A stretch of 64,000 bases of DNA from Macrolepiota albuminosa (Eukaryota > Basidiomycota > Agaricomycetes > Agaricales > Agaricaceae), in NCBI GenBank assembly GCA_027475525.1, contig JAMWFC010000029.1:1054001-1118000 (forward strand), read 5' to 3'. Of this stretch, positions 12,292 through 64,000 are shown one piece after another (within the stretch, counting starts at the first letter, position 1; every line of letters starts with the position of its first letter). The notes beneath the pieces are model-generated. The model worked only from the letters and a program-made list of their open reading frames with translations. It did not search any database and was not told where the DNA came from. The position numbers were made by a program, and so were the translations under genes.

Positions 12292-12445
12292 TTAAAAAAT
12301 ATAATGGGTTATAATCAACTGTAGACATGTTCAAATATGCAAAGGTCAAACTCAAAGCAGTATTTTTGTTAAAAAATATAATGGGTTATAATCAACTGTA
12401 GACATGTTCAAATATGCAAAGGTCAAACTCAAAGCAGTATTTTTG
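12292..12445. repeat. 77-bp tandem duplication (perfect)
   Basis: Copies 12292-12368 and 12369-12445 are identical. They lie in the AT-rich island. One of 23 duplications of this exact period in the window. Confidence 0.95.
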
Positions 12446-13255
12446 AGATCACTACCTTTTTTATCAATTCAGATTAAATTAGCTGAATTTTAAATAGTAT
12501 TCTTACTTTATATTATAGTATCACTTTCAATCAATCTAATACTTAGAAGTTGGGGCTAAGAAAATCTATCAACTTGAATATAAGAGCAGGAGTAAAGCAG
12601 AGACTATTAAAACTCTTTTTAATTCTTTAAAAAGTAACAGGCATTTGAGTAGTAGGATATCAAGTCAAAGACTATTCTACTTTGAGTGTTTATGTATTAT
12701 AATATTATAGTAAGTCTTTATTTATTACTTGTTATAATTCTTTACTGAATAATAACTTTCAGAATATTGATGATGAAGATAGTAAAGCATTAAAGTGTTA
12801 TAAGCCTTTCATGTGCCAATCAGTGTCTTCAACTATATACAAATAAAGATCAAGTGCTAAAAAAAGCTGTAAAAAGTAAATTATGTTTTTTTGATTAGCT
12901 ATTATTATTTTAATATATTGCATTATTATTTCAGGCCTTTTTTTTAATAGTATAACAATATGCTAGTATATTTAAACTATAAAAAGTTCTTGCAGCTAAT
13001 GAACTAGCTGATGTAGAGATTCAATTTAATTGTTATAATTTATAGCTACAATTTTTACTACAAATGAGCATAGAAATACTAATAAACACATCAATATTGA
13101 GGAGAAAACTATTAAGATTGCTTAGAATTGGCAGTTTTATATTTAAAGTAATTAATCTAATAGTGTATATTTTGCCAAGAATTTGATAAAGTTTGTAATA
13201 AGTAGTGATTATATTGTATTCTATATACTATTCTTATCTATTATAGAAGCACTTT

Positions 13256-13843
13256 TGTAAGGACGACCTCTGGAGGCTGTGGCTCAGTCACACAGCTGGC
13301 AGAGGGAGATCCAAAGTGTATTAGAATATATACTGACAATATTATGATAACTACTCACCTGCAGTCACACAGCTGGCAGAGGGAGATCCAAAGTGTATTA
13401 GAATATATACTGACAATATTATGATAACTACTTACCTGGCAGAGGAAGATCCAAAAAAAACAAGTCTAGAGATTTTTTATGCCAGGTTGGATGCTTCTGG
13501 GGCCTCTGAAGCATGGGAAACAACTGTACAGTACAACAAAACCTTAAAAACTCAAAAATTGCCTAAATAAACAACTGTACAAACAAGGCAGGAAAACTCT
13601 GGACTTTGGAAGTCAGAAAGGCAAACTCTGGCTTATATAAGTGGTTTAAAAGTGGTGCTAAAGGGCCCACACTTGATAGCTAAAAAACTAGAGCATCTCT
13701 AGGGCTGAGAATAGTACTAACAGATAGTGTTGAAAGAATAGAAATAGTAAAATGAGAGAATAACAGAAGAAATAAGAGAATGAATAAAAGGAGAGTGAAG
13801 AGATAAGGAGTGAAAGAAGGAAGAAATGAGGAGTCTCCTGACA
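13256..13843 (-). mobile_element. Solo LTR 1 with 5-bp target duplication
   Basis: On the minus strand this begins TGTCAGGAGACTCC and ends CCTTACA. It is flanked by ACTTT on both sides (13251-13255 and 13844-13848), a 5-base target-site duplication typical of LTR retrotransposon integration. No internal region is present, so it is a solo LTR left by recombination. It carries an extra 77-base tandem copy (13285-13438) that its sister LTR lacks. Confidence 0.88.
13285..13438. repeat. 77-bp tandem duplication inside solo LTR 1
   Basis: Copies 13285-13361 and 13362-13438 differ at one base. The related LTR at 13887-14425 has only one copy of this segment. Confidence 0.93.
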
Positions 13844-13886
13844 ACTTTGACAATAAACAATATGTGATTTTTTAATGCAAACATAT

Positions 13887-14425
13887 TGTCAGGAGACTCC
13901 TCATTTCTGTCAGGGTACTCCTCATTCCTTTCTTCTTTCACTCTTTATTTCTTCACTCTCCTTTCATTCACTTCCTTATTTCTTCTATCATTCTCTCATT
14001 TTGCTGTTACTACCTTTTTAACACTATCTGTTAGTACTATTCTCAACCTTTGAGGTGCTCTGGTTCTTTAGCTATCACTCAGACAAGTGTGGGCCCTTCA
14101 GCACTGCTCCAGGCTGCTTAGATAAGCCGGAGTTTGCCTTTCTGACTTCTAAAGTCTGGAGTTTTCCTGCTTTGTTTGCACAGTTGTTTGGTTAGTCAAT
14201 TTTCAAGTTTTTAAGGTTTTGTTGTACTGTACAGTTGTTTTCCATGCTTCAGAGGCCCCAGAAGTGTCCAACCTGGCATAGGGAATCTCTAGACTTGTTC
14301 TCTTTGGATCTCCCTCTGCCAGGTGAGTAGTTATTATGATATTGTCAGTACATACTCTAATACACTTTGGATCTTCCTCTGCCAGCTGTGTGACTGAGCC
14401 ACAGCCTCTAGAGGTCACCCTTACA
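13887..14425 (+). mobile_element. Solo LTR 2, same family, opposite strand
   Basis: It starts TGTCAGGAGACTCC and ends CCTTACA, and is flanked on both sides by CATAT (13882-13886 and 14426-14430). It belongs to the same family as solo LTR 1 but is inserted in the opposite direction only 43 bases away. Together they form a near-palindrome of about 1.17 kb. Separate target duplications show two independent insertions. Confidence 0.88.
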
Positions 14426-16167
14426 CATATTGCTACAACAGCATTTTACAATCTCATTGACTTGACTGCTGAGTTGTGCCTTATGTTATTGAAACAATAT
14501 GTTGTGAAATTTTTCAAGTACAGAGCTAATATTTATAAAGTAGATATATTAAATAAATTAGTCTGCTTATTATAGCTTGTTAATTGTTTTATTACTTGCT
14601 AGATTTTTGCTAGAATATCTTTGATGCATTTTTTTATTCAGTAATATCTAAGCTTCAGCCTTCTCCTTAGGCCAATAAAAAGAATATAAGAAGCTTCATT
14701 TTCAAAGAATTTTTAGCTACTTTCTACTAAAGATCTCTACACTAAAAGAAAGTTTAGCAAATAAAGAATCAGACTTCAATCTAACAAGACTTTTGAATGA
14801 CTGCCAAGTTTTTTTTTTTTTGAAAAATAAGTTAAATTGTTGTTAATTAAAAAAAGCTGAAGTTGATGATGAATTATTGTCCAAGTAGATAAAGAAGTTG
14901 GACTTCAAAATGCATGATAAAAATCATTTTATTTGTCTTTTTGCCAATAATTTTCAAGTCATTTTATTAATTATAAATTAAAATATTTTCATTGAATATT
15001 TCAAATACACTTTAATATCTTTTATTCAGCTGCTTGATGCAAAAATCATTTAATATATCAAAGCACATTACTGATATGCATTCTGTATATATACTCTTGA
15101 TCTAAATAAAGTAGGTAAAAGAGCAATCTATAAAATTAAATCTTTTTAGACTTATAGTAACAGAAGCATGAAATCTAGTCAATAGTAAAATATACAGAGG
15201 AATACAACTTGAGTAAGAAAATCATAATCAAATCTCTATTTTATTGACAATATAGCAATGTAAGCAGAGAAAATAGTGGTACTGCTAATTTATCCTAATT
15301 AAGGTGCCTGTGATATTTTTTTCAAACTTTGCCATCTCTGAATTGACCTTACTCATGAAAACTGACTTTGCAAGTATCTAGAGAACAATATAATGATAGC
15401 TGGCAATCTGCTTTAAAGGCTATAATAAGTGCTGAAAAAGATGTGGCTAAGGCACAGGATGCTGTCTAATTACTTTTTGAGGCTAGCAACATTTCAAAAC
15501 TAACTATTAAGCATTCTTTTCAATACAATGCTTTTGCTAGCCAGATCAAAGCTGCTGAAGAGACTTTGATGAAATCCATCAATAAGCTAGTCAAGAAAAA
15601 AAGGATCTTCAAGAAGTCATTGAGCCTTGAGAAGTTGGTTGACTCTATTGAAAAATGTGAAAATCCAAATTTATCAAATGCAGCAAAAAATGGCTGAAAA
15701 TTCAGGTTCCATTGATGCAGGTCAAATTTGCAATTCAGATGAGGAAGAAAGATCCTGATGGTGGTGCTTTGTGCATAGAAATCATTTCACTCTGTGAAAA
15801 ACTTGAAGGTTATGTGTCAAATTTAGAAACTCTGACTTATCCCTTGAGCTTCCAAGGCAGTTGTGGAAGTTCAGGGCACAGCTACATATGAAGGAGATGG
15901 TAGAGAACAAATTTACTTCAAGTAGTAGACACAAGGCTGTCAAACTTTTGAGATTCCAATGTCACACATTGGGCTGGAGTCACGCCACATCACAGAATGT
16001 GTCATATTCTTGTCTTGCACTAATGCATTGGTTCTAGGCCAGTCCCAGTGCCAGTGCTTTGCTGTAAAGAAAAAAAATATGATATTTATCAAATCATAAA
16101 GACATTGTTCAGAACAATCAATGAGCATTATAATTCTTTTTGATTGGTGGTGTCCTTCGTTATTACA

Positions 16168-17026
16168 ATGTTCAACAGACTCGGGTTAGACTTTGTTTTG
16201 TCCTTTAGTATGCCCTGCTCACTCGTCGCAGCCTCCTTGCCCTTGCCGCTCCTTTGGCCCACGCTCTCACCCTCAACATTCCCCAAAACCCACTCTCGAA
16301 TGAATCTGTCAATATCACATGGACACCGGAGGCCGGCGACCCGTGCGTTGTCCTTTTCCCACTAAAGTCCACTACTCATTTCTCCTTAGAAGCATCTTTT
16401 CCCTCGAACTCTTCAACGAGCAATTCCACAACGCGTTTGCCATCGCCAACAATGTTCTCACCTCACAGCAGAAAATCACCCTCACTTTACCCGCGGTCCC
16501 TATAGGGTGCGCTCACAAAAACAACCTTGGCCTTCTGTTCTCAATTTTATTTTTCGTAGTGGCGGGTACACTTTGAACGCTGTTGACGTTGGCAACATCA
16601 ACACAGTCTTTGCCAGCACTGGAGGCTTCTCTATCGGTCCAGGTTCCAGCAACACACCCAGCGCCTCTGTTGTCAGTACCTCCGCACCCGCCACCTCCCC
16701 GTCCGCCACTGCTCCCGTCACCATGTCAAACACACTTTCTGTATCTGGCTCGTAAGTATCCCCCTTCTCCCCCTCTCCTTGAGATTAAATGCACCCCTTA
16801 AAGCAACGCGACGTCAACGGGGGCCTCGAACTCACAACTCGTCAACCCCTCATCCAGCGCAAACAACACCGCCTCTAGCCCCAACTCTGCACAGTCCAAC
16901 ACTTCCTCAGCCGCCCCGCTCAGCGGCGGCACTCTGTCAAACTTTGGAACTATCAAGGACGTCGCTGCTGCTTTGCTCTCGGCACTCGCCGGTGCTGCGG
17001 TCATGGCTTTATCAAAATGTTCGTAA
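16168..17026 (+). CDS. Kre9/KNH-domain Ser-rich GPI-anchored protein, paralog 1
   Basis: Five exons, 16168-16184, 16232-16342, 16390-16506, 16560-16751 and 16804-17026, total 660 bases and 219 residues. The first exon is 17 bases; splicing to 16232 gives the signal peptide MFNRLGLLALAAPLAHA. The Kre9/KNH-like beta domain follows: LTLNIPQNPLSNESVNITW, FNEQFHNAFAIANNV, then GGYTLNAVDVGNINTVFAS. A Ser/Thr/Asn-rich linker comes next, and a hydrophobic tail (VAAALLSALAGAAVMAL) looks like a GPI-anchor signal. The protein should be secreted to the wall or plasma membrane. Its close paralog lies convergently at 20210-21062 with identical sizes for exons 1-4. Unlike the paralog, its upstream sequence is AT-rich transposon DNA almost up to the start codon. 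Confidence 0.85.
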
Positions 17027-17434
17027 CCTGCATCCCCCATTCCCGTATGTCGTTTTTGACGGGTTCGATAACTTTTTTTTTAATCCATGCGATGATTTGT
17101 ATCCGTTTCGTTGTCTTGATGCATGATGGATGTATGATGTATGGATGTATGGAGCTGTAGAGTTTGGAGTAGTGAAGTGGTGCTCGTGAGCTTTGTGCTG
17201 TATTTACGCGTGATTTATTGAGTATATTCTGGATAATGTGTCGGATGTATGCCGCTTGAAGAATCGAGAATTGGGTCTCGGTTACATGGGGAGTGTGGAT
17301 ACGATCATTTATCATTTATCATTGAATATTGTATATTGATCATTGCATCCATTGCATCATTCATGGAGCATTTCTAAGAAGGTAAGTCGCATCGATGCCA
17401 GCGGTGAACTGTAAAGAAGTGCTAGAGAATACAT

Positions 17435-18000
17435 ACATACATCCAATGCGTTGAGCACGCACCGCCCACAAACAAACGTTTCACCAACGCGGACTTGACA
17501 ACAGAAAGATACTCAGTCACCTTTACGTACCGCGTCTGATAATGGACCGAAGTTGAAACTAAGCCGTAGCATTGAAGTATCGGGAACAATCAAGAATCGG
17601 ACTCTTTACAATGCATTTCATGTATACCTGGAACATCCAACGTCCCAACGCGTATCCACGCGCCCAGATGCGCATTCCAAATGTCGAGAACACTAAGCCG
17701 CGTAGATCGCGGCCGCGCGGGGGTTGGGTTGCCAGGTCAAAAAAGCCCAAGGCGGCGTATGTACTCAGCTCCGACAGGACAGATGTCAAAGTACCTCTGT
17801 GACAAGGGGTCACATAATATGTAGATCCGACCTCAGCCTCATCCCTCGGTCAAGGGTGCAAGCAAGCAACGCACACAAGTGCGCGGCCATTTCAAATGCT
17901 TGGTTATGGATGATAAGCTTGACTCCTGGCTCGGAAATGTATGATTTACAGACCCTGCGAAACCGAGACTGGGATCTCACGTATCCCTTCTTACTCTTAT
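17435..18000. repeat. Dispersed ~540 bp repeat, copy B
   Basis: Same-orientation copy of the 10685-11220 repeat, 6.7 kb away, with scattered substitutions and small indels. It lies between the two GPI-anchor paralogs and has no convincing coding frame. Confidence 0.75.
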
Positions 18001-24453: not shown

Positions 24454-24607
24454 TTCGTGGATCCCACGCCCACGCCCACACACACACTAGGATGATGGTG
24501 CGCTGGCTCGTCTGTCTCTGCGCCTGGCTTTTCGTGGATCCCACGCCCACGCCCACACACACACTAGGATGATGGTGCGCTGGCTCGTCTGTCTCTGCGC
24601 CTGGCTT
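24454..24607. repeat. 77-bp tandem duplication (perfect)
   Basis: Copies 24454-24530 and 24531-24607 are identical. Intergenic. Confidence 0.97.
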
Positions 24608-25304: not shown

Positions 25305-25458
25305 GATGTTATGTTACCCTTCCCTTGACCAAGAAAAGAAAAGAAAATAGACAGATTCTTTCTCAAGATCGATAGGCGCGCGATGTTATGTTACCCTTCC
25401 CTTGACCAAGAAAAGAAAAGAAAATAGACAGATTCTTTCTCAAGATCGATAGGCGCGC
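25305..25458. repeat. 77-bp tandem duplication (perfect)
   Basis: Copies 25305-25381 and 25382-25458 are identical. Intergenic, between ATP23 and the enoyl-CoA hydratase gene. Confidence 0.97.
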
Positions 25459-25950
25459 GCGTGTGTGTGTGCGGGGTAAAACAGCGAACGCGCTTGTCCC
25501 GTTCACTTTTCGCAGCTAGAAACTATGCTTTTCAGCATCTACCATTTGACAAACGAGCAAGAGGGGACACCAGCACACAATCAGTAACCCTGATTGTAAA
25601 AAAAAATATCAATATCAATATCATATAAATCTCGATGATATCCAAAAGCAAAGCACAAAGCACAAAGCAAAAAGGGAAATAAAAAGAAAAAGAAAAATAA
25701 AAAGAAAAGGTTCCCATGCTCCGCCAAGTCTCTTCCTTTTATTTTTAAACTGCTGTATCGATTCGAATATAAAAAAAAAACTGTTAACCGCCGAAAGAAC
25801 AGTAACAACAAGGGGGTGGGTACGAGTATGAGTATGAGTATGAGTTATGGCCGTTAAACCCGAACCAACCAACCAACCTAACCAATCACGCACGCACGTC
25901 CCACAAGTGTGCGTGCGGGCAGATCATCGAAAGAATACCGGAAGCGGAAC

Positions 25951-35852: not shown

Positions 35853-36006
35853 GCACGCCATGGCGAAAAAAAAAGACTGTGATAATGAGCCGGCTCGAAA
35901 TGGTTTTCGCTCGTTCCAAGTATCCTTAAGCACGCCATGGCGAAAAAAAAAGACTGTGATAATGAGCCGGCTCGAAATGGTTTTCGCTCGTTCCAAGTAT
36001 CCTTAA
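35853..36006. repeat. 77-bp tandem duplication (perfect)
   Basis: Copies 35853-35929 and 35930-36006 are identical, including a nine-A run. Intergenic. Confidence 0.97.
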
Positions 36007-36237
36007 GGCATGCCGTCAAGATCTTACCACGGTTTTGACTGACCCTTTTTCTTCCATTCCCCCGTATGGACAATGCAAGTATCAGACTCCCAGGATACTA
36101 CTCTAATGTTGCAGTGGTGAAAGTTTGATGCTGCTCTTCTGTTTAGCCGTTGCTTTTTCTGCGGTGGCGTCTTCTCTTTGAAGGAATGAATGGACAGTAA
36201 CAGCATTTCAAGTCATCGCATGAACTCATTATAAAAA

Positions 36238-36391
36238 TAGGGCGACATCTGAGATCTGAGACTTTACGTATGACTCAAATGACTTTCTTGCAGTTGAACA
36301 GCGCGCTTTTTTTTTAGGGCGACATCTGAGATCTGAGACTTTACGTATGACTCAAATGACTTTCTTGCAGTTGAACAGCGCGCTTTTTTTT
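36238..36391. repeat. 77-bp tandem duplication (perfect)
   Basis: Copies 36238-36314 and 36315-36391 are identical, including a T-run near each end. Intergenic. Confidence 0.97.
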
Positions 36392-36468
36392 TCTTAGAAC
36401 AAACACCCACGATTATGACGGTCGCCAGCTAGGAGAGGCTTATCTATCTGCAGGTTGCATGCCACTTT

Positions 36469-36622
36469 TCCCTCATGCCTTGTAGTGATAATCAACAAAA
36501 AACACAACACGCCACTGATGAGGACCTAGTCATTCTATCTTTTTGTCCCTCATGCCTTGTAGTGATAATCAACAAAAAACACAACACGCCACTGATGAGG
36601 ACCTAGTCATTCTATCTTTTTG
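36469..36622. repeat. 77-bp tandem duplication (perfect)
   Basis: Copies 36469-36545 and 36546-36622 are identical. Only about 80 bases separate it from the preceding duplication. Confidence 0.97.
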
Positions 36623-36850: not shown

Positions 36851-37004
36851 AGCCCGTGAAAATGATGAAATGGAGCGAATTTCTGTAATACTTGATTGGA
36901 GAGCAGTGGAGAAGCGACTAGACTGCAAGCCCGTGAAAATGATGAAATGGAGCGAATTTCTGTAATACTTGATTGGAGAGCAGTGGAGAAGCGACTAGAC
37001 TGCA
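36851..37004. repeat. 77-bp tandem duplication (perfect)
   Basis: Copies 36851-36927 and 36928-37004 are identical. Intergenic. Confidence 0.97.
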
Positions 37005-37383: not shown

Positions 37384-37537
37384 TATGTGCCCAGATGTTG
37401 AGATAGTGGAAGCTTGTTCAGGCATGCAAGTACTACTGACAAAGAACAGTTCCTGGAGAATATGTGCCCAGATGTTGAGATAGTGGAAGCTTGTTCAGGC
37501 ATGCAAGTACTACTGACAAAGAACAGTTCCTGGAGAA
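37384..37537. repeat. 77-bp tandem duplication (perfect)
   Basis: Copies 37384-37460 and 37461-37537 are identical. About 220 bases upstream of the ATG27 start. Confidence 0.97.
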
Positions 37538-37755: not shown

Positions 37756-39400
37756 ATGCGGTGGTTCCTCCTTCTGGCACTAGGCATCGTACTGTGCGTG
37801 GCAAACGACGAGTTGCCATGTACGATTCATCACGAGGGAAAGTACTATGACCTTGACCCACTCAAATCAAAGTAAAGGAGGCTCTTTACTCGGACGAGCA
37901 CCGTATTCACGAAATTCTGTCTAGTCAAGATTATGAATTCAGGACACCGGGTGACCACTCATTCACTCTGAATGTTTGCAGGCGACCTTCGAAAGAATCG
38001 TTTGGCTTGAAGGATATAGACGACTCTACGGTTGCTGGGTTTGTCAGATTGGACCACGGTGACTTTTCCATCGGGTGAGTCTCTTGTTGAATAGCATGTA
38101 AAGTAAGACTAATGAAATCTATAGAGCTGTTAATACAACTCTATCAATGTATGACTCGAACGTGCGCATGACGCTCACGGGTGGTTCACGCTGCTCTATA
38201 GAGCTGTTAATACAACTCTATCAATGTATGACTCGAACGTGCGCATGACGCTCACGGGTGGTTCACGCTGCAACTTAAATCTGGGGACACTGAGTTGCGC
38301 GCATCGACTGTTGTCGATTTTGTGTGCGATACCTCTGTTTTCGGCGCAGGTGAACCGCGCCTTGTGGCCCAGTTTCCACCTGGTAACGACGAGGAGGCGT
38401 GTGGTTATTTCATACAATGGAAGACCCATGTAAGCGCTTCCTCTGAATCTGTGTCGGTGATCTCGTAACTTTTTGGACAGGTCGCGTGCCCGACTAATGA
38501 ACCTGGTGGAGCATGGGGTTTCCTCGCGTCCCTTATCTTCACGTGTGTTCCTTTCATTCTCCTATGACATCTTCCCTAATTAACATCCAGACTAATTGGT
38601 CTTGTCCTCCTTTACTTTGCTGTTGGGACCCTATACAACCGATACGTCCTACACCTTCGAGGTTTCGACCAAATCCCTCGCTTTTCACTTGAGAGCATGC
38701 GCTACCATGCCTCCGAAGCTGTTTACTGGTTCAAGGATCTGATCGGGATAGGTTCAAAACAATACAACTATCGTATGCCACAAGAAGGGTTGAGCACAAC
38801 ATTATCTGGAGGAAGTGTATTACCTCGTTCCACATCAGGAACAGGAGGTCTCAATCCAGTTAGCCATCATACACAAGCGTCGAATCCAGAAAGTGCTGCT
38901 GGTACTAGCCCAGGTTCAGGGGGCGGTGCATTTGTTCGTCCATACAACTCCCGCACCACATCTGCATCTGGGAAGCAATACGATATTAACCCCGTCTCGC
39001 ATCAAGCGCAAGCGTCCGTCGCTGCGTCCGCAGTTCCTGCACCGCCCACGTCCGACCTATCTCAGTCTCAACCACCACCTCAATCGCCATCGCGACCTCA
39101 ACCTCGACAAGCGCCGTTATCCCCACCTGCTGTGCCCTCCGTAAATACCGTTCCAGCACCCGTGCAGGAGAGACACCGCCCGCAACCTTTCGACCTTGGC
39201 GACGATGATGATGGCGAGGTGAATTTGGGTACCACGAGCACGGTTGTAGACACCGCCCGCAACCTTTCGACCTTGGCGACGATGATGATGGCGAGGTGAA
39301 TTTGGGTACCACGAGCACGGTTGTGCCGAAGAAGCAGGCTGGTGTTGCTGCTCAAGAACGGGGAAGGGATCTGGGCGATGGTGGGGTGATAAGATTGTAG
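37756..39400 (+). CDS. ATG27: Autophagy-related type I membrane protein Atg27
   Basis: Exons: 37756-37871, 37925-38074, 38125 (or 38202)-38429, 38481-38542, 38591-39400. A signal peptide (MRWFLLLALGIVLCVA) is followed by the Cys-rich mannose-6-phosphate-receptor-like luminal domain: CTIHHEGKYYDLDPLKS, SFTLNVCRRP, AGFVRLDHGDFSIG, VVDFVCDTSVFGAGEP, EACGYFIQWKTHVACP. One transmembrane helix follows (LIGLVLLYFAVGTLYNRYVL), then a long Ser/Pro/Gln-rich cytosolic tail. Atg27 helps traffic Atg9 vesicles and vacuolar membrane proteins. Two 77-base duplications interrupt it. The one at 38118 spans the acceptor and exon 3, and one further base is still missing at its end to reach frame. The one at 39171 lies in the tail; removing a copy restores a frame to the stop at 39398-39400. 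Confidence 0.87.
38118..38271. repeat. 77-bp tandem duplication in ATG27 exon 3
   Basis: Copies 38118-38194 and 38195-38271 are identical and duplicate the 3' splice site plus 70 coding bases. Confidence 0.97.
39171..39324. repeat. 77-bp tandem duplication in ATG27 tail
   Basis: Copies 39171-39247 and 39248-39324 are identical. With both copies the frame stops early at 39297; with one copy it continues to 39398. Confidence 0.97.
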
Positions 39401-39412: not shown

Positions 39413-39566
39413 ACTACGACCGACTATTCTATTTGTATTATTCTTTTTCTTGCGTGATTCAGGATTTGATGCCCTCTTTGTAGTAACACACTACGACCGA
39501 CTATTCTATTTGTATTATTCTTTTTCTTGCGTGATTCAGGATTTGATGCCCTCTTTGTAGTAACAC
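39413..39566. repeat. 77-bp tandem duplication (perfect)
   Basis: Copies 39413-39489 and 39490-39566 are identical. Just downstream of the ATG27 stop. Confidence 0.97.
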
Positions 39567-39671: not shown

Positions 39672-39825
39672 CTAATCCTTCAGTGAATATAACTTTCACC
39701 AAATGTCTAGATGCGATCATCTCATAACTACGGTCCGTAAAGCTTTGCCTAATCCTTCAGTGAATATAACTTTCACCAAATGTCTAGATGCGATCATCTC
39801 ATAACTACGGTCCGTAAAGCTTTGC
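39672..39825. repeat. 77-bp tandem duplication (perfect)
   Basis: Copies 39672-39748 and 39749-39825 are identical. Intergenic. Confidence 0.97.
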
Positions 39826-40325: not shown

Positions 40326-40868
40326 TCTCTGAGGTTCTAGTTTCTCAATCTAGAGGTGCTACAAGTGAGATGGTACACACTTGGAGCTTTTCCTGCAATT
40401 ATTCGCAGAGGGACAATGTTAACGCCGCCGAGATGGAAGAACAAGAGTTTCCTATTCCGGTTCACTATGATCCATCCCGCTCCTTGTCGATCGTAAGTAA
40501 TTAGTAAAAATAGCTTTGCTCGGGAATATAAAGAGTCAACTACGTATCCATTGAAATCTGAAAACTTCCCTCTTTACTTAGTAAAAATAGCTTTGCTCGG
40601 GAATATAAAGAGTCAACTACGTATCCATTGAAATCTGAAAACTTCCCTCTTTACTCCTTTGTCGTTGAGAAGAAATCAAATCCGTTCAATGCCCGAAATC
40701 GAAATCTCTTTGTCTTTGCGAGTACGTGCTGCTTGAACAGGAGTAAATTGATTGAAGCTCGTGACACCAGGCGTAGCAGGAAGTGACACTCAAACTATGC
40801 GCTTCACCATCGGAACTATGGCTGTAACGTCGACCAACTCGTCAACAGGCATGCCTTTCACGAGCTGA
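40326..40868 (+). CDS. Unrecognised spliced protein, 3' part
   Basis: Three exons join cleanly: 40326-40492, 40613-40721 (after dropping one copy of the 40501 duplication; 40536 is the same acceptor in copy 1) and 40771-40868. The protein reads SEVLVSQSRGATSEMVHTW, FPIPVHYDPSRSLSI, TTYPLKSENFPLYSFVVEKK, NPFNARNRNLFVFAS and GSDTQTMRFTIGTMAVTS, ending MPFTS. Three joins in phase, plus balanced composition, argue for a real gene. I do not recognise the family. The 5' end is not found; the piece at 40036-40137 is a candidate. No membrane segment is seen in this part. Confidence 0.5.
40501..40654. repeat. 77-bp tandem duplication across an intron-exon border
   Basis: Copies 40501-40577 and 40578-40654 are identical and repeat the end of an intron, its acceptor and 42 coding bases of the unrecognised gene at 40326-40868. 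Confidence 0.97.
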
Positions 40869-41478: not shown

Positions 41479-44368
41479 ATGGCGACTCCCCACCCTCGCC
41501 AACTTCCAGCCCGATTTCGATCCATGGCTGCGGCTCGTGATCGTGATCGTGAAGAACAGATCCGCAGTGATGAAGAATTTGCATGGCAACTACAGGAGCA
41601 AGATGTCCTTGACGAATCCATACGTCTTGCAAACGAGCGCCACGCTTCGTCGCGTCCCTTTGTCCCACCTGTAGCTCCCCCGGGCAACGGCAGCGACGAA
41701 GAAATAATCCAAGATGCTTTTGCAGGCCCGCCGCGCGCGCGCGATAGGAACGGTGCATCATATTCTCGGCGTAGTGCTACCGCTCCTGCCACCGCTCCCG
41801 TAGGTCCTGGACAACCTGTACTCGACCGGAATGGTGCCTTCACTCCCGAGCCATATCAGGCGCGTCCGCGCAATAGAAACGGTGCATCATATTTTCGTCA
41901 CTTCCCGCGTAGTGCAACCGCTCCTGCCACTCCTGCCACCGCTCCTGCAGTTCCTGGACAACCTGTACTCGACCAGAATGGTGCTTACACTCCCGAGCCA
42001 TATCAGGCGCGTCCGCGCAATAGGAACGGTGCATCATATTTTCGTCACTTCCCGCGTAGTGCAACCGCTCCTGCCGCTCCTTCCACTGCTCCTGCCGTTC
42101 CTTCCACCGCTCCTGCCACTCCTGCCACCGCTCCCGTAGTTTCTGGACAACCTGTACTCGACCGGAATGGTGCTTTCCCTCCTGAATCACATTCTCATCA
42201 CTTGCCACGTAGTTCAACCGCTCCTGTCACCGCTCCCGTAGTTACTGGACCACCTGTACTCGACCAGAATGGCGCCTACATTCCTGAGCCACATCAGAGT
42301 CGTTCAACGGCTTGGCAGTCTGCTTCAGTCATCCCTCCCGTTGTGCCCTCCGCACCTACGGGTGATACGAACACTGCTCGTGCTCCTAGACCACCCCGGC
42401 AGTCCCAGGTTCACCAGTCCAACGGTTCTGTCATACCCCCGACAACGCGTGCGCGCAATCGCACCGTTACCTTCGCTCCAGAGTCATCCCGGCCTCCGCA
42501 ACCTCCGCAACCTCCGCAACCTCCGCAACCTCCGCAGCATCATCAGACCACTGCTCCCTTCATACCTCCAGCTCCAGACTCATTCCGGCCTCCGCAACCA
42601 CCGCAGCATCATCAGACCACTGCTCCCTTCATACCTCCAGCTCCAGTTTTCGCTGGCTCAAGGAGAGCCGCCACGCCAGTTCCGCCTCGCCCTACGTATT
42701 GGTACCCTCCCGGTTTCGTACCGCCCCACATGCGTGCTCAAACTCCCGTCCCGATGATGCAGCCGATGTACTATCCCCGTACCCTCCCGGTTTCGTACCG
42801 CCCCACATGCGTGCTCAAACTCCCGTCCCGATGATGCAGCCGATGTACTATCCCCACCGGGCGCCGTCATACCTGCCCCGCCGATCCCTCCTATTTACCG
42901 ACCACAAAAACCGAACGTCGTCTCTTCCCCTCCGCCCCAAAAAACGGAGGAAGTCATCGTCCCGTTCATCCCACCGGAACCCGATGAAAAACCGAGCCCG
43001 AAAGCCAGGCCGAGGCCGATTTTGAAGCCCAAGCCGACAGTAAAGCCTGCATCAAAAGCTGTGGTGTCTTCTGAGAATGACGATACTCGGGGTCGCTCGC
43101 GCACGAAGACTCGGCCCACCGAGCCCAAACCCAAGGCTGAGAGCCCTGAATCCACGGTCATCGGTGAGGCAGACACCGATGTTGATCTTCAGTCTGGACC
43201 GCTGCATGACCTTCGCAAGCATGTCAGGATGCTGACAGGGTCTTTAAAATGTACCACATGTGCTGCCGAGGTACACCCCGTACGTCCCCTTGCCATTTCC
43301 TTCCCTCTCGACAATTTCCTGCCTTCCCACGTCATCTTTTCCGTCCTTTTTTTTTTTAGATTACCTTGCTGTTTTCGTGTCCAGTTTGTTTCTCGTTTTT
43401 ACTAGCTGAACTGACGATGACATCCTTCGTAGACACCCATTCACAAAGATCTAAGCACCTTGCCTCGCCTCCCCTCTTTCGACTCTCATCTACACCTCAC
43501 ATGCTCTGCATGCAGCACGATGTACTGCCGTGGATGTCTCCGTACCCCACATTGCAAGCGGACCTGCAACGCCGGGCCCGACGAAAAATGCTTCCTCAGG
43601 ACCTGCTGCCGCGCCGGTCGTGCAATCGCGATCTTCGCCATCCTCTCCTGCTTCGACGCCAAGTTCCTCGCCATGTTCCGCGCCTCGCGCCGTTCCACGT
43701 ACCTCGAATATATCAAAAAAAGCCTCTCTTCCTCATCTTCGCCCCTTTCCGAACTTATCCTCGAAACAGTCAGCTCCCTTCTTACTTGGCTCCCCATAGA
43801 CCCTATACATTCCAAGTCCCAGCCGCACGTCCATGACACCGTCAAGCCGCTCTTCCAGGTCTCCCTCTTGCTCGAGGTCATCCGGATGTGCCTCCGTGTG
43901 CCGCGAGAGGCGTGGATCCGCCGCCGCTCTTCCAGGTCTCCCTCTTGCTCGAGGTCATCCGGATGTGCCTCCGTGTGCCGCGAGAGGCGTGGATCCGCCT
44001 GGGAACGGAAAAGTATACAAGACGATATTGATGTTCCTTGTACGGCTCGAGGAGGTCGGCAAAGGTGTGCTGGCGGGGCTCGTGCTTGAGCGCCAAAAGG
44101 ATTCAGAGCGGACCAAGGGAGTTGGAGAGTCGTTTGGGCTTTAGCTGAACGCGTGAGTGAAAAGAATAAGGGGAATGAAAAGAGGAAAGAGTTGGGCTGG
44201 ACAGCAGGCGGCGAGCGTGAGAGCTTTTGTAAGATTTTGAGCGAGGAGAAGCTGGGTCAGGACTTGCAGGATATGAAGGACAAGATCCGGGAGGAGGAGA
44301 AAAAGGCGTTGCTGGATCATCTCCAGTGCCAGCTTCTGCGCTGGACAATGGCGGAAACACTGAAATGA
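41479..44368 (+). CDS. Pro/Ala-rich protein with UIM-like and Cys-rich (RING-like) parts
   Basis: The start is at 41479; exon 1 runs to 43270 and exon 2 begins at 43433. Near the N-terminus SDEEFAWQLQEQDVLDESI resembles a ubiquitin-interacting motif. Four imperfect repeats follow (41740-42300, units with GQPVLDQNGAYTPEP and RNRNGASYFRHFPRSAT), then a Pro/Gln/His-rich stretch and a basic Pro/Lys region. A Cys-rich module spans the intron: LKCTTCAAE, then LTCSACSTMYCRGCL and further Cys. It resembles a RING/IBR-type zinc fold, so a ubiquitin-ligase or ubiquitin-reader role is a reasonable guess only. The C-terminus is a charged helix ending RWTMAETLK at 44368. Two 77-base duplications (42702 and 43846) break the frame, and even with one copy a single base seems missing at each. 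The 3' splicing is unresolved. Confidence 0.6.
41740..42300 (+). repeat. Coding minisatellite in the Pro-rich gene
   Basis: Imperfect direct repeats of roughly 100-160 bases, each with a aggaacggtgcatcatattt-like core and cctgtactcgacc core, encode the Pro/Ala repeats. Embedded short Ala-Pro-Ala-Thr runs vary in number. Confidence 0.7.
42702..42855. repeat. 77-bp tandem duplication in coding sequence
   Basis: Copies 42702-42778 and 42779-42855 are identical. Copy 1 is in frame (GFVPPHMRAQTPVPMMQP), copy 2 is shifted and truncates the protein at 42834. Confidence 0.97.
43846..43999. repeat. 77-bp tandem duplication in coding sequence
   Basis: Copies 43846-43922 and 43923-43999 are identical, within exon 2 of the Pro-rich gene. 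Confidence 0.97.
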
Positions 44369-44746: not shown

Positions 44747-46978
44747 ATGCCAGCTGTTGTAAAGAACAAAGTCTGTCTAATGTAAGTGTTTACTCGATCG
44801 ACTTCCAGCTGTTTATGACTTGTCGATTGACAGTGTCCACGATGGCTGGGGTGTTGCCAAAGTACCTGGACTTGAGGGGAACGCCATCGAAGCAGGTAGT
44901 ACGACTAACATGGACACTATCGCCAAAGATCATAGCTATCGCCAGCTCGCTGCTCATGGAACTGCAGTGGGTCTAAGTGAAGGACTCATGGGCAACTCCG
45001 AAGTCGGGTATGTAAGTTACGCGTCACAACTTCTATCGCTGAATTCATGAGGTCTTGTTTACAGCCATCTGAATATTGGCGCAGGCCGTGTCGTCTGGCA
45101 GGACATAGTGCGAATCGATGTCTCGATTAAGAAAAGGCAATTCCACAAAAATCCGACTATTCTTGAGAGCTTTGAGAGAGCGAAGAAGGGAAATGGAAGG
45201 TTGCACTTGATGGGCCTGGTGATTCCATCTCATCCGTTATCGATTTTGAGCCATATTATTAATTTTGGTAATAGGTCTCCGATGGTGGCGTTCACTCGCA
45301 CATCAACCATCTCAAGGCGCTTCTTGAAACCGCAAAAGAAGTCGGCGTTCCAAAAACATACGTCCACTTCTTCGGAGATGGTCGTGACACTGCTCCTCGT
45401 TCGGCGGCTGGATATTGTCAGGAACTCCTCGACTTCCTCAAGAAAGAGGAATATGGTGAATTGGCGACGATTGTGGGGAGGTATTACGCGATGGACCGCG
45501 ACAAGCGATGGGAGCGTGTCAAGGTTGCTGTGGATGGTCTCGTTAAAGGAGAGGGAGAAGATGGCAAGGGAGCTGAGGGAGTCGTTGACGTCATCAAGGC
45601 GAACTACGAGAAGGACATTACTGACGAGTTCTTGAAACCGATTATTGTGAATGGCGATCAGGGCCGTGTCAAGGGTATGTTTTTTCTTTGACCTTTCGCC
45701 TTGCATTCTTGAAACCGATTATTGTGAATGGCGATCAGGGCCGTGTCAAGGGTATGTTTTTTCTTTGACCTTTCGCCTTGCATTTTGATTTGGAGTTGAC
45801 AGAGGGCGATACTCTCTTCCTGTTCAACTACAGATCTGATCGTATGAGAGAAATTGCCACCATCCTTGGTAGTCTTGACAAACCAATGGAGGTAGAGGTA
45901 CCTGATAACCTGGTATGTGTCCGAGAGATATTCTACTTGTTTTTCACAATGGTTCTTGCCAGAATATCACCACTATGTCTCGCTACAACGCTGAGTTCCC
46001 CTTCAAAGTTGCTTTCCCCCCTCAGGCAATGACCAACGTCCTTGCTGAATGGCTCAGCAAACAGGGCATCAAACAGGCCCACATTGCAGGTCAGAATCAT
46101 ACTTTTTTTATATTCACTACTTATCTATACTCCAGAGACTGAGAAATACGCTCACGTCACCTTTTTCTTTAACGGAGGTGTTGAGAAACAGTTCGAGAAT
46201 GAAGAAAGACATATGATCGCATCGCCGAAGGTAGCCACCTACGACAAGCTCCCCAAGATGAGCGTGCACGGTGTAGCTGAAAAAGTTGCTCAAGTTCTCA
46301 GGGAGAGGTAGCCACCTACGACAAGCTCCCCAAGATGAGCGTGCACGGTGTAGCTGAAAAAGTTGCTCAAGTTCTCAGGGAGGTGAGCACGAGTTCGTCA
46401 TGTGCAATTTTGCCCCTCCCGACATGGTGCGTCATTCCGTTCCTCTTTCCCTCTCCACTGGCCTTGTTCCCATCATCGAATATTATCACTTCTGTAGGTT
46501 GGCCACACGGGTGTTTATGAAGCCGCGGTCGAAGCTATCACCGAAACCGACGCTGCCGTTGGGACGATTTACAAAGCTGCCCAAGAAGCTGGATACATCC
46601 TTTTGGTCACTGCCGATCACGGAAATGCCGAACAGATGAAAAACCTGGAGACTGGCGCGCCGCATACTGCACACACTACGAATCCCGTCCCGTTCATCAT
46701 GACTGGTGATCCTACTAAACTCAAGTTCGTGATGGATGAGGAGAAGGATGGCGAAGACGAGGTTGAGGAAGGAGCGTTGTGTGATGTTGCACCTACTGTA
46801 CTCGACTTGATGGTAAGCACCACTTGTATTGAAATGTTACACGTCATTTCTCTGACCGTTACCCCCAAGGGTTTGCTCATTCCCGAGGGTGAGTGATATG
46901 GATTTGTTTTATGCATGGTTAGGCTGATCTCGATACTACACAGATATGACTGGCCGCTCTCTGCTTGCAAAAGCGTAG
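44747..46978 (+). CDS. 2,3-bisphosphoglycerate-independent phosphoglycerate mutase
   Basis: Ten exons: 44747-44781, 44834-45007, 45065-45218, 45275-45674, 45803-45912, 45963-46089, 46136-46382, 46498-46812, 46870-46888 and 46944-46978. With one copy of the 46229 duplication removed they total 1539 bases and 512 residues, the normal length. The enzyme (EC 5.4.2.12) interconverts 3- and 2-phosphoglycerate in glycolysis using two Mn ions. Visible landmarks are [34 protein letters not shown] (catalytic Ser), [48 protein letters not shown] and [14 protein letters not shown] second 77-base duplication (45629) repeats the end of exon 4 and its donor but is spliced out if the first donor is used. Confidence 0.93.
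45629..45782. repeat. 77-bp tandem duplication at exon 4/intron 4
   Basis: Copies 45629-45705 and 45706-45782 are identical, repeating 46 coding bases, the donor site and part of the intron of the mutase gene. Confidence 0.97.
46229..46382. repeat. 77-bp tandem duplication in mutase exon 7
   Basis: Copies 46229-46305 and 46306-46382 are identical. Both copies in the mRNA would frameshift the enzyme just after KVAQVLRE; one copy gives the exact family frame. Confidence 0.97.
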
Positions 46979-58700: not shown

Positions 58701-59205
58701 GTGGGAAAAATGTCTTCGATTTTTGCCGTCATGTGACTGTGTTTGTTCTCATTGCCATTACTTCCTTCCGGTAAGCGTGGGAATAATGTCTTCGATTTTT
58801 AACGTCATGTGATACTACCGTTCGTCTGTATGGTTACTTAGTCAGCAGTAAACTATGTACGTGTGGGAGTAATGTCTTCACTTTTTAACGTCATGTGATA
58901 CTACCATTTGTCTGTACGGTTACTTAGTCAGCAGTAGACCATGTACGCATGGGAGTAATGTCTTCATTTTTTAACGTCATGTGATACTACCGTACGTCTG
59001 TACGGTTACAGAAATGCGTGGGAATAATGTCTTCGATTTTTAACGTCATGTGATACTACCGTTCGTCTGTACGGTTACTTAGTCAGCAGTAGACTATGTA
59101 CGCGTGGGAGTAATGTCTTCACTTTTTAACGTCATGTGATACTAGTACGGTTACATATATGTGTGGGAATAGTGTCTTCCCTTTTTAACGTCATTTGTTC
59201 CGTAG
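58701..59205 (+). repeat. 86-bp minisatellite, seven units
   Basis: Units begin GTGGGA (one ATGGGA) at 58701, 58777, 58863, 58949, 59018, 59104 and 59163. Full spacing is 86 bases (three times); others are 76, 69 and 59 because parts are missing. A conserved core reads aatgtcttc, then tttttaacgtcatgtgatac. Full units continue with cgtctgtacggttacttagt. The array abuts the truncated gag at 58652. Confidence 0.9.
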
Positions 59206-59789
59206 CTTTACTATGTTAATATTTGATATCTACATATGCCAGGATGTAGCCACGGTTGGGTCTGTTTTAACACATTCTCTACACCCACTCGGTCCGTAAT
59301 GTTCCAATTTTATTTGGCTGATGTTCTTTCCTTGCCAGATGTATTGGATGTCCAGTCGACCCATAGATCAAGCGGTCTCTGAAAAATAGGCCTATTTTGA
59401 TGACTAATTGTGAGTCTTTCTATGTCCTGCCTGGTACAGGCATGACAGGACACGATATTAGATCGCAGATAATAGCCGCCACGCGAAAACCATATATCGG
59501 AGCAGACACATGCATTATGACTTATTTCCTTGGCTGCCTTCTGTGGAGAGCGATCCCTGAATACCAGTGCTGATATACCCCCCGAAAGATTCGGCATATC
59601 GCCACTATCTAATGAACACCTATTGTCACTTGAGAGGTCTGTTATCCAGCGCAATAGATATATGACAACAAATCATTGATTTACTAGATCATGGCACTTA
59701 CTGATTTCGACAGTCTGCCATGCGACAAGCCGTCATTACGACCAATTATTAATGCGCCACGGCTTAACATGGAGCAACAACGGGCTATG

Positions 59790-59943
59790 CTCAAAGTTAA
59801 ATATTCTTATTCAGACTCTTCCGACAGTTATTCGGATTCCCTCCCTACTTACTTCAGACTCTACTCCTCAAAGTTAAATATTCTTATTCAGACTCTTCCG
59901 ACAGTTATTCGGATTCCCTCCCTACTTACTTCAGACTCTACTC
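59790..59943. repeat. 77-bp tandem duplication (perfect)
   Basis: Copies 59790-59866 and 59867-59943 are identical. Confidence 0.97.
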
Positions 59944-60193
59944 CAAATCGTATGCGTTTTCTTGTGGTCGTTCACCGTCGCTGTTTCTATATCCCTTATT
60001 GATGTGTTCGTGACAAATACAGGTTGCCGCCACCGTATCATTGACATCATGATTCTAAGTATCTCCTTGCCTAAGCAGAGGTATTTATATGCTTTGTTTC
60101 CCAAAACCAAGGCGCGTACTACTCGATTTGATGTCTTCTCCAATCCGAGCTTCTCTACATTGTCCCACTATTTTTTCCTTTATGTCTTTATCC

Positions 60194-60347
60194 ACTCCCT
60201 CGTGTGCCCCTTGGTGGTGCTCCTCCCTCTAAGTATGATGGCAGAGACGACTCGGCATGCTACGACCCTTACTCCCTCGTGTGCCCCTTGGTGGTGCTCC
60301 TCCCTCTAAGTATGATGGCAGAGACGACTCGGCATGCTACGACCCTT
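60194..60347. repeat. 77-bp tandem duplication (perfect)
   Basis: Copies 60194-60270 and 60271-60347 are identical. Confidence 0.97.
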
Positions 60348-60769
60348 ACCAGCGAGACATTCGCTGTTTAAGCAGCCGTTGTGCGTCAACGAGCCATAAT
60401 CTATAGTGCTTCCAGGATGCTCGTATAATGATGTTACGGACTTCAGCATTTTCAAATGCTGTTATGGACTGGGGTTTTGTTGTTTGCACTAGCAAGACAT
60501 ACGGTCAAAGACACCCAACACGTTCTTTCATCCTCAATTTACTACCACATGGAGCACTACCGCGATATCCTATTGTGGCGCCCTCACACATCCTCCCATC
60601 GCCCCTCTGGTATCAAGATGCGCGCCATGTCTTGTCAGGGGATTCTCCAGGTGACGGAGAGGTATTCAGATGTGCTGTATCACATTAGACCCGCTCATCT
60701 CGTTTTTCTGTATGTTTTGACTTCTTGGTTCGCTCGTTAATTGACCTTGAGTCAGGAGCTATACGCATC

Positions 60770-61020
60770 GTGACAAACGGACCCATCTCACAACGAAAGC
60801 TTTCGATGGATGAGGAATTCTCGTTGCCGCATTCCATACTCACGAAAATCAACGGCTTGATGAAGTTTGGACTTACTCGGATGCTTCGAAAGAGGTCGAG
60901 TGGAACGCAAAGCTCATCGTCGCCAAACATATAGTACGCCGCGAGCCTAACGAGCCTGATTTCACTTCATGTGGAAAGGATTTGGTACGTGAAGTGTTCT
61001 TGACGATCGAACTTGCTTAA
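60770..61020 (+). pseudogene. Protein-like fragment, unrecognised
   Basis: One frame reads IVTNGPISQRKLSMDEEF and SLPHSILTKINGL. An overlapping frame continues DEVWTYSDASKEVEWNAKL, IVRREPNEPDF and REVFLTIELA with a stop at 61018-61020. Two good-looking frames that shift into each other near 60860 suggest an exon with an indel or a missed intron. No family is recognised. Confidence 0.3.
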
Positions 61021-61536
61021 TGTTATGCGCAGTGCAGCAACGTAACGATACCTCATCAAGTAGATCTGGGCATAAAGGCCAATATTTTCATGCTCGACTA
61101 GAGGTATGTTCGCTTTATGCATATCGAAACACTCATACTAAATGTTCTGTTTCTAGTTATTTTTATTGTAGTTAGTAGAATATCTATATATACATTCTAT
61201 ACCCGTAGCTGGACGTCAAGACTAAACACACGCTGCTGGGTTTATGCGGTGTTCGGTGTCCACCGTCATTGGAGCCTTAGGCGCAATTCTCATGAGGAAC
61301 ATTGAATGGTACGTCGTCTTTGCTCTATTGTCAGTAAAGCTCTTATAGATTAAACGTCTTTAGTGGAACGGTTTCATAATAATAGTAGAAGACCCTTTAT
61401 TAATCATTTGTATCGGTGCAGCTAATAATTACATTAATACTTCACTACTGAGGCCATAATTTGTTTCTTATCAAAAAAAGGGCAAAGAAAACTGTTGCCT
61501 GTTTCATAGCTAGGTTTTACAATAGAAACCGGCAAA

Positions 61537-61684
61537 TTTCCTCTGTCTGAAGACTTTTTTCTATCGGAAATTGATACATTGGAAATGGCATAACAGTTTA
61601 CCTTTTCACATTTTTTCCTCTGTCTGAAGACTTTTTTCTATCGGAAATTGATACATTGGAAATGGCATAACAGTTTACCTTTTC

Positions 61685-61690
<6 letters not shown>
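61537..61690. repeat. 77-bp tandem duplication (perfect)
   Basis: Copies 61537-61613 and 61614-61690 are identical, immediately before the poly(T) tract. Confidence 0.96.
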
Positions 61691-61728
<38 letters not shown>

Positions 61729-61780
61729 ATTATTATTATTATTATTTTTTAATTTTATATATTTTTTATTTATTTTTTTT
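61687..61780. repeat. Poly(T) and AT low-complexity tract
   Basis: More than thirty consecutive T followed by TTA triplets and further T-runs. It could be the poly(A) tail of a minus-strand retroposon insertion, but no retroposon body is recognised next to it. Confidence 0.85.
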
Positions 61781-61856
61781 TTAATTGACGTTAAACCGCC
61801 AGTTTGCAGAAGACCAATGTAAGGGCCTGATGAATTGCAACAATCATGTGAGCTAT

Positions 61857-61926
61857 CCTAGGAGAGGAGGCGCAAGTGAGACTGGGTTCCGTAGGGAACT
61901 TTCACTTCGACGTCCTCCTCCCTAGG
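61857..61926. other. 70-base imperfect inverted repeat (hairpin)
   Basis: The arms CCTAGGAGAGGAGG and CCTCCTCCCTAGG enclose a second pairing (AAGTGA with TCACTT) and an inner gttcc-gta-gggaac loop stem. The whole could fold as one long hairpin on either strand. Confidence 0.6.
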
Positions 61927-62679
61927 TAAGAAAACACAATTGGGTGCCATTAGTGCTTACTACTAGTCAACCGTTCATATTTTCGTATATGATGTCTTTA
62001 TGCCAACCTGGATCGTCAACGTTCAGCTAACTGAGCTTTATTGCCAGTAGGTAAAAGGATTACCGAAACACCTTAATCGGTATCATAGTATCATGATTTG
62101 TTATTCCCCTACACTGTTTAATACTTCAATTTTCTGATTGTGATACCGTAGGCTTGTTAAATACAATTGATTATTAGCATGTCCAAGTCATCCGATCACT
62201 TACAACGTCCGCAATGAAACATTGTCGGTGTCACACCGTCCTGATGTATAGCCCGTTAGTCCAATGTAGTACACTATCTACATATATAGTACACTATCTA
62301 CATCTGTAGTACACTATATACAACGTTCAACCATATACCATATACAGTACGACATATACAATGTACAATATTTAGGGTTGCGAGCAAGAAATTATGACAG
62401 GGGCCTCCTCCCAACCTCATCTTCCTCCTCTGTCTCTCCCACGGTCGTCGTCGCTGCTGCTTCCGCTTCGACCATTGCCGCTTCAACCATCTCCACTGTT
62501 GCCACTGCTCCTCTTCCCATCATTGCTGCCATCACTGCGGCTTCACCCGCCTCCGCTGTTGTCATTTCTTCTTCTAAAGTCGATACCAACATCGCGACTA
62601 TTTCATTCCGTGTTGGCATGGGCTGGCCAGCGTCCGCTGCCACTTCCATCCAAGTTCCTGGTGTCACTGCATTCCTGCG

Positions 62680-64000
62680 TCAGTGCGCTGCTAACAGACC
62701 TCCCAACTGATTGATTCCTTGCGTAATCTCTGGTGGGATCTGCTGGGGCAGCCCTTGCTGGATGAGGGCGAACGCCGAGGAACTACCGTCCAATAACAGT
62801 CGGTACTCGTGCACCATTCCTGGGCGTGAAGATGTATCAGGTATATGGTATGGGACATAGGGTCACTTACGCATAACATCTTCATGGGACGACGCCAACG
62901 CGTTCAACAGCCAGTTCCTCCTCCTTAAAATCCGTGGCTGTGCCGCCTCCACTCGCCGTATCGCCTGTTGTACCTCCTCTATCTCTGACGCCCCGGGTGC
63001 CGCATTGTCCGACCCTCGATTCTCGATATTCTCTACTCGCGCTCGCAACCCAGCCAACTCGTCTTCGATAGCCACGCATGCCACTAAAGCGGCATCCCTG
63101 TCTCCAAATGCTCTGTTCCTGTCACGAATAGCCGCATTCCTCTCTTCCCGCATGGCCTCCTGAGCGCGTCGTTCCCGCTGAAGATCCTCTCGCATGTGGT
63201 GCAGCTGTAATGTTACCCGGTACCCATTTGCCATGGCCTCTTGCAACTGCTGGCGCGTTTCCTCATCAATAGACGATTGGGCAGGTATCAGGGGGGGTAC
63301 CCATTTGCCATGGCCTCTTGCAACTGCTGGCGCGTTTCCTCATCAATAGACAATTGGGCAGGTATCGGGGGGATTTCACGGATATCCGACATGTCCAAGC
63401 TTGGGGACCTCCGCACACGCTTGTACCCTATTATCTCCACCGACTCGGTCGAAGCTCGGTGCTTCCCTTTGTCCTGTTGCGGAGACGACGCTTCCACCCT
63501 TCCTCCTTGCGACGAACCCTCAGTGTCGAAGCTCGGTGCTTCCCTTTGTCCTGTTGCGGAGACGACGCTTCCACCCTTCCTCCTTGCGACGAACCCTCAG
63601 TCTGCGCCTCAACCGACCCCACATCCTTCGATGAACCCTCAAGCCGCAATCCACTTGACTCCTCGCCCTTTGACCTGGGCACATTACCCGCACTCGATAA
63701 CTTTGTATTCGCATATCCACGCGCGCAATTAAATAATATCGAACCCAAATTCCTTGCTTTATCATGCCGAGCTGTCGGCGCTTCCTCCATCAACGCAGGT
63801 GAAGCTCTGCGCTTCCCCTTATCCTGCTGTGTAGTCGACGCCTTCGCCTTCCTTCCTCTCGATGAACTCCCAGCCTGTGCCCCACCCGACTCCTCGGCCC
63901 TCGATCTGGATGCACTAGCCAACTGGCTCAGCACCCAGGTCATGTCCCACCCCTGTTCTTTGCTCATGCAAGATGCCTTCCATGCCTGAGCCACGGAGCA
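62680..64000 (-). CDS. Coiled-coil gag-like protein, 5' end beyond window
   Basis: Two exons: 62871 to the window edge (ATG candidates at 63967 or beyond) and 62680-62819. Once one copy of each 77-base duplication (63219, 63448) is dropped the frame is continuous. From 63994 it is 1110 bases to the stop at 62680-62682. The protein has QQDKGKRRASPAL-type Lys/Arg-rich segments, SDIREIPPIPAQLSIDEETR, a long coiled coil (REDLQRERRAQEAMREERNA), and an end VHEYRLLLDGSSSAFALIQ then GINQLGGLLAAH. I believe similar proteins occur in many copies in agaricomycete genomes near retroelements, so a transposon origin is likely; this is from memory, not checked. Confidence 0.6.
63219..63372. repeat. 77-bp tandem duplication (two mismatches)
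   Basis: Copies 63219-63295 and 63296-63372 differ at two bases near their ends. It lies in the gag-like coding exon; one copy restores the frame from LQEAMANGY into RVTLQLHHMRED. Confidence 0.93.
63448..63601. repeat. 77-bp tandem duplication (perfect)
   Basis: Copies 63448-63524 and 63525-63601 are identical. In the gag-like exon; one copy restores the frame from DKGKHRAST into ESVEIIGYKRVRR. Confidence 0.97.

Follow-up and report, generated by a model that had tools for sequence, protein, structure and literature searches.

Direct repeats of flanking sequence are well-known products of slippage and end-joining, in which their length varies, and of target-site duplication, in which they flank an inserted element. 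The feature considered here is a set of tandem pairs, each consisting of a unit of 77 bases followed at once by a second copy of itself, in a stretch of 64,000 bases from Macrolepiota albuminosa (assembly GCA_027475525.1, contig JAMWFC010000029.1); this stretch will be called the window, and corresponds to C81:1054001-1118000 in an assembly of 100,137,612 bases and 129 contigs. Positions given without a contig label are window coordinates, while C81, C6 and so forth designate contigs of the assembly. Like the duplications just mentioned, the pairs are direct repeats of flanking sequence, but they differ in that the length is always 77 bases and the copies are adjacent, and in the loss of bases at their outer edges. 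Judging from the assembled sequence alone, they are almost certainly an artefact of some assembly or correction step working with a word length of 77; there is, in other words, very little doubt that the pairs are real as sequence but not as biology.

The nearest likeness to be found within genome assembly itself is to untrimmed overlaps in de Bruijn graphs, where a word of fixed length k stands on both sides of a join and is doubled if it is not trimmed; in SPAdes this overlap equals k, and 77 is a usual word length. An extract of PMC5481147 states that SPAdes contig ends keep their overlapping sequence, and that Unicycler removes this overlap. The present case differs in that the doubled words are found within long scaffolds, and in that one or two bases are also missing just past the second copy in 10 of the 18 comparable pairs. 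There is a further likeness to the “homotype” false duplications of long-read assemblies, which an extract of PMC9516828 traces to errors in the read sequence; there too a false second copy results from sequence errors, and the copies are not different alleles, but as far as that extract goes those duplications are under-collapsed stretches for which no fixed length is given, and for which read depth was used as the diagnostic. In WENGAN a long-read consensus is polished with short-read contigs, a word of 77 not being mentioned in the passages of PMC8041623 on this procedure. Among the titles and opening lines of abstracts of open-licence literature, no description of tandem pairs of fixed length k inside scaffolds was found.

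When periods from 2 to 2999 were scanned across the window, a period of 77 gave 23 exact runs of at least 30 bases, and no other period gave more than two. Tandem Repeats Finder returned the identical 23 pairs, and the period scan reproduced every start position of the original prediction, in which 23 tandem pairs, all of period exactly 77, had been reported. For one period alone to stand out in this way among unrelated sequences is far in excess of chance. The exact run is 77 bases in 13 pairs (those starting at 12292, 24454, 36469, 36851, 37384, 38118, 39171, 39413, 39672, 42702, 43846, 46229 and 63448), 78 in five (25305, 35853, 36238, 40501 and 59790) and 79 in two (45629 and 60194), the longer runs arising because one or two bases outside a unit of exactly 77 match by chance; in the other three (13285, 61537 and 63219) mismatches interrupt the run, leaving 71, 73 and 56 bases respectively. 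The length of the unit is not variable, being 77 in all 23 pairs, and the two copies abut directly (a period of 77 with a run of 77), with no inserted element flanked by them. If mismatches are tolerated, the copies are identical in 20 of the 23 pairs and differ at a single unit position in two, namely 13285 (position 72) and 61537 (position 74), while 63219 has mismatches at positions 57 and 72; the earlier tally, which put the perfect pairs at 21 and those with one mismatch at one, needs correcting to this extent, although its single pair with two mismatches stands.

The other allele of this region lies on C6, in reverse order, with about 94-99.6% identity in pieces that cover most of window positions 9151-54728. 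An alignment to the C6 stretch is possible for 18 of the 23 pairs in the window (not for the other five), and at none of these 18 sites does C6 have a pair, as judged from the occurrences of each unit in the C6 stretch compared, where 17 of the units occur once and that of 13285 twice. Over the longer stretch C81:1044001-1138000 (94 kb), which holds 26 pairs, 19 are alignable and seven are not; 18 of these 19 units occur once in C6 and that of 13285 occurs at two places 60 kb apart, none of them being paired. The reverse comparison gives the same picture, since C6:545001-635000 (90 kb) holds 17 pairs of its own, of which six align well to C81 and the other 11 have no good match in the C81 stretch, and at none of the six comparable sites is there a pair in C81, each unit occurring just once in the stretch compared. 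If one copy of each pair is removed, C81 and C6 align without a break over 19.5 kb and over 21.2 kb, where the raw sequence gives many pieces. As a separate observation on C6:545001-635000, a period of 79 there gives seven exact runs of at least 30 bases, with several more at periods of 158, 179, 237, 337 and 416; these probably come from local arrays, not from 77-base pairs.

The edges of the units were compared with C6 across four of the six alignment blocks, which together make up 43.9 kb and contain 390 substitutions and 64 insertions or deletions (indels) of 1-2 bases. An allele difference falls exactly at a unit edge in 13 of the 18 pairs, as against 4.4% of 3600 random placements, while 11 of the 18 show a 1-2-base indel at their right outer edge (10 deletions and 1 insertion), as against 1.1% at random; seen from the other side, 10 of the 41 small deletions that C81 shows relative to C6 within these 43.9 kb fall at the right edges of the 18 pairs. 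The corresponding binomial probabilities are below 1e-13, for sites that are not fully independent. A routine using fixed gap placement found edge contact for 11 of the 19 pairs in C81 and for four of the six in C6, the random controls giving 5 of 250 in each case (567 and 521 places were tried for these, and those that were poorly aligned or adjacent to a pair were dropped). On inspection of the C6 alignments, the lost bases lie mostly within single-base runs or two-base repeats, which are the usual error sites of long-read drafts. A real tandem duplication would be expected to create a new junction only between the two copies, whereas here it is the outer flank that is changed at the right edge in 11 of 18 pairs; because the copy-copy junction is the sole new adjacency that such a duplication makes, losses at the outer edge count against it, and they imply instead that the second copy was inserted between the unit and the sequence that follows.

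Pairs also occur inside dispersed repeats, two of which (59790-60349 and 63219-63601) were compared with other copies in the assembly, 40 of 82 candidates being scored for the former and 40 of 76 for the latter. Among the 38 other scored copies of the repeat at 59790-60349, the match begins at the second unit in 33, which fits the presence of one copy of the unit, and at the first unit in five. Four of these five were compared, and each proved to have a 77-base pair of its own, in another phase, while the single member of the 33 that was compared has no 77-base pair. In none of the 38 does the match extend into the second unit of 60194, nor does it extend into the second unit of 63448 in any of the 39 other scored copies of the repeat at 63219-63601, of which 36 begin to match only near the second unit (query positions 70-79) and appear single. 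Judged by eye and without a random control, 7 of 10 pairs in repeats touch a base that varies among copies (59790, 60194, 63219 and the pairs at L035, L037, L039 and L040), and the base found in the window at 59790 and at 63219 is also present in at least one other copy of the repeat. Contact with varying bases in repeats is the behaviour that would be expected of word-graph nodes at branches.

The consequences for genes are clearest in the case of phosphoglycerate mutase. In C6 one exon of this gene is read in a single frame, with all 68 residues aligning to solved structures of the enzyme, whereas in the window, where the pair at 46229-46382 lies within it, three frames are needed to cross it, because the 77 doubled bases shift the frame and the lost base shifts it again. 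C6 in its turn carries a different pair on the neighbouring phosphoglycerate mutase exon, of which the window version matches residues 305-337 of the solved enzyme. The iPGM_N family (PF06415) is found in the assembly only on C6 and in two identical copies on C81, and since it occurs only at these loci, every copy of the gene that was found is broken, by different pairs. That every copy of a central glycolytic gene should truly be broken is, in our judgement, not credible. Likewise the frame of a proline-rich protein is open across the corresponding site in C6 but split at 42702 in the window. The same frame also contains a tandem repeat at 41783-42134 (2.2 copies of a 147-base unit), which, having a period divisible by three, looks like an ordinary coding repeat.

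Samples of 10 kb that were not picked for the presence of pairs, in which a pair was counted if at least 68 of 77 bases matched, contained none in C1, five in C20, none in C66 and three in C100 (8 in 40 kb). The scan for period-77 runs that had been suggested with the original prediction, carried out here on sampled stretches, is positive for those of C81, C6, C20 and C100 but negative for those of C1 and C66; among all the contigs examined, nine have pairs (C81, C6, C20, C100, C11, C27, C106, C108 and C26). Some of the sampled pairs have features of their own. The imperfect pairs of the C20 sample (L025, C20:200001-210000) are at 193 (differences at unit positions 4, 39 and 42), 1660 (position 61) and 4654 (position 20), unlike the right-end pattern seen in C81 and C6. 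In the C100 sample (L027, C100:20001-30000) a 77-base unit is present three times in tandem at about 9035-9265, with one difference, and this may be either the result of the artefact happening twice or a real array of small size. It may be that not every pair sampled in C20 and C100 belongs to the same kind of artefact.

The stage at which the pairs arose can be approached through a much larger duplication. The 68,146 bases of C81:490001-558146 are the same, without a mismatch and with the pairs included, as those of C81:1046398-1114543, the second of these copies including window positions 1-60543. The first copy terminates at a run of 100 N, and further matching pieces, likewise 556,397 bases apart, extend back to C81:372124. 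As far as the sequence goes, it appears that one contig has been placed twice on the C81 scaffold, and because it stands there twice, pairs included, with its first copy ending at an N gap, the pairs probably arose before scaffolding.

The step that we envisage would alternate between a graph of reliable 77-mers and a draft sequence. A walk through the graph would halt at a branch or at an error in the draft, with the last 77-mer already written, and if the output then restarted the draft from the start of this 77-mer instead of from its end, the word would be doubled; a draft error directly after the doubled word would remain uncorrected, and so would appear as a lost base at the right edge. 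There would also be a mirror case at re-entry into the graph, in which the first reliable word would be doubled and the difference would be at the left edge, as may be so for 12292 and 60194. The lost bases would on this account be uncorrected errors of a long-read draft, at which the walk of a graph of short-read 77-mers ended. As for the five imperfect pairs of C81 and C6, all six of their copy differences are at unit positions 57-76, and they look as if one copy had been corrected while the other was left as draft. The doubled word and its location are observed directly, whereas we infer the hand-over, the origin of the draft in long reads, and the program involved.

A de Bruijn artefact with k = 77 had already been suggested in the original prediction, in the form of joins left untrimmed, and several results favour such an origin in general: the absence of the pairs from C6, the presence of other pairs in C6, the phases seen in repeats, the edge contacts, and the presence of the pairs in the exact second copy of the contig. 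Untrimmed joins alone, however, leave the right-edge losses unexplained, and it is because 10 of 18 pairs are without 1-2 bases right after the second copy that the explanation has been refined here to a hand-over between walk and draft. If de Bruijn edges sharing a 77-mer node had simply been concatenated without trimming, no draft errors would be involved and the lost bases would have to be real allele differences that branched the graph. This would account for the period of exactly 77 and for the fact that units touch differences between alleles or repeat copies, as is required of branch nodes, and it agrees with the retention of overlaps at SPAdes contig ends noted in the extract of PMC5481147. 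On the other hand, branch nodes should mostly touch substitutions, yet the right-edge losses of 1-2 bases at 10 of 18 sites occur although substitutions and 1-2-base indels between the alleles stand at 390:64; furthermore, genes with an open frame in C6 are put out of frame by two of the lost bases, and inspection shows that at several single-base runs the unit ends before bases common to both alleles. We regard plain untrimmed joins as possible but rather unlikely. Two other origins for the lost bases were considered and set aside. A popped single-base bubble was rejected for at least two sites, 36851 and 39413, where another allele difference follows 9-13 bases beyond, too close to allow the bubble to be closed by a clean 77-mer. 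Polishing of an already doubled sequence was dismissed by reasoning, in that reads lying on the doubled unit would give no cause for a loss at its outer right edge.

Were the pairs instead the outcome of a real process, it would have to make tandem copies of arbitrary sequence, always 77 bases long, recently and frequently enough to leave the two alleles with different sets. The occurrence of pairs on nine of the contigs examined, their differences between alleles, and the divergence of a few pairs by one or two bases would all be compatible with this, but the losses are at the outer edge and not at the copy junction, both phosphoglycerate mutase alleles are broken with no further PF06415 match in the assembly, and copies of repeats are paired in neighbouring but differing phases. 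We know of no enzyme that measures 77 bases in arbitrary sequence. The new duplication process that was raised earlier as an alternative thus has the edge test, the repeat phases and the phosphoglycerate mutase evidence all speaking against it, and we consider it extremely improbable; a variant in which a genome-wide process pastes exactly 77 bases beside small lesions, replacing the 1-2 lost bases, with each allele having its own scatter, seems if anything a little more far-fetched still. A mixture, in which most pairs are artefacts while a few in repeats, such as 63219, are old tandem repeats inherited with a transposon, is less easily dismissed but nevertheless improbable: the copies at 63219 do differ at two sites, C108 has the same unit doubled in phase, and C100 has its three 77-base units in a row, with one difference (L027), but 36 of the 39 other scored copies of 63219-63601 look single, and the pair in C26 is in a different phase, as expected of graph nodes.

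There are also a number of observations that weigh against an artefact of a 77-base word as the explanation. The value of k is itself deduced from nothing other than the period, as no paper describing this assembly was found among those listed for Termitomyces. Five of the 18 pairs in the edge test have no difference from C6 touching an edge, and 3 of the 10 pairs in repeats (63448, L034 and L036) are not, by eye, in contact with any base at which the compared copies vary. The doubled unit of 63219 in C81 recurs in C108 with its phase unchanged, and could also be an inherited repeat. Two of the four sampled 10-kb stretches, those of C1 and C66, are without any pair. The copies differ by one or two bases in 5 of the 43 pairs of C81 and C6, which counts because exact double writing yields no differences unless there is later editing or one copy is draft, and in the C20 sample differences are found at unit positions 4, 20, 39 and 42 as well (and at 61), one of the five C20 pairs having three.

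It remains to set out the individual pairs, which were located by the scan and, for the 18 from 12292 to 46229, followed in the C6 alignment. Those with a run of 77 are perfect, and each unit is single in C6 unless otherwise stated. The most frequent situation is for the right edge to lack one base, as in 35853..36007 (run 78), 36851..37004, 37384..37537, 38118..38271 (where the left edge also lacks one), 40501..40655 (run 78), 42702..42855 (which splits the proline-rich frame), 43846..43999 and 46229..46382 (within the phosphoglycerate mutase exon). Two bases are missing there in 39413..39566 and in 45629..45788 (run 79), the latter starting near the end of a phosphoglycerate mutase exon match, while 36238..36392 (run 78) has one additional T at its right edge and 25305..25459 (run 78) has a right-edge difference within a GT repeat. 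For the perfect pair 12292..12445 the C6 allele is without a pair, and a substitution touches the left edge. No variant is present at the edges of 36469..36622, 39171..39324 or 39672..39825, nor at those of 13285..13438, the pair with one mismatch at position 72, which is unpaired in C6 and whose unit, a repeat, is the one found at two C6 places; in 24454..24607 a base is missing 3 positions past the right edge, which was scored as no contact.

For the remaining pairs the scan was combined with comparison of repeat copies, apart from 61537..61693, which was characterised from the scan; this pair has its one mismatch at position 74, precedes a T-rich run, and has no allele within the C6 stretch compared. 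The right edge of 59790..59944 (run 78, in a dispersed repeat) is at an A, where four of five other copies have G and that in C11 has A, and in 60194..60349 (run 79, in the same repeat) the left-edge base is A, as against G in four aligned copies. The pair 63219..63372, in another dispersed repeat and with its mismatches at 57 and 72, has the same unit doubled in C108, a pair in another phase in C26 and a single unit in C74, whereas the perfect pair 63448..63601, in the same repeat as 63219, is single in the three copies compared.

Two further features of the window may be mentioned. At 58771-59194 there are overlapping tandem arrays with periods of 86, 69 and 155 and 87-93% matches, which are probably an ordinary minisatellite. 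An open frame resembling NIF3 has its best named matches in Termitomyces; with that of Termitomyces sp. T32_za158 it shares 78% identity across 77% of the query. Judged by this one protein, the source is probably a mushroom of the Termitomyces group.

If the pairs are an artefact, the record may contain thousands of false frame shifts, a figure extrapolated to 100 Mb from a small and partly chosen sample, and gene models would be broken and tandem repeats feigned as a result. As a cheap quality check, any assembly can be searched at the common word lengths for stretches in which s[i] = s[i+k]. If, on the contrary, the pairs were real, they would represent a new route to the duplication of DNA.

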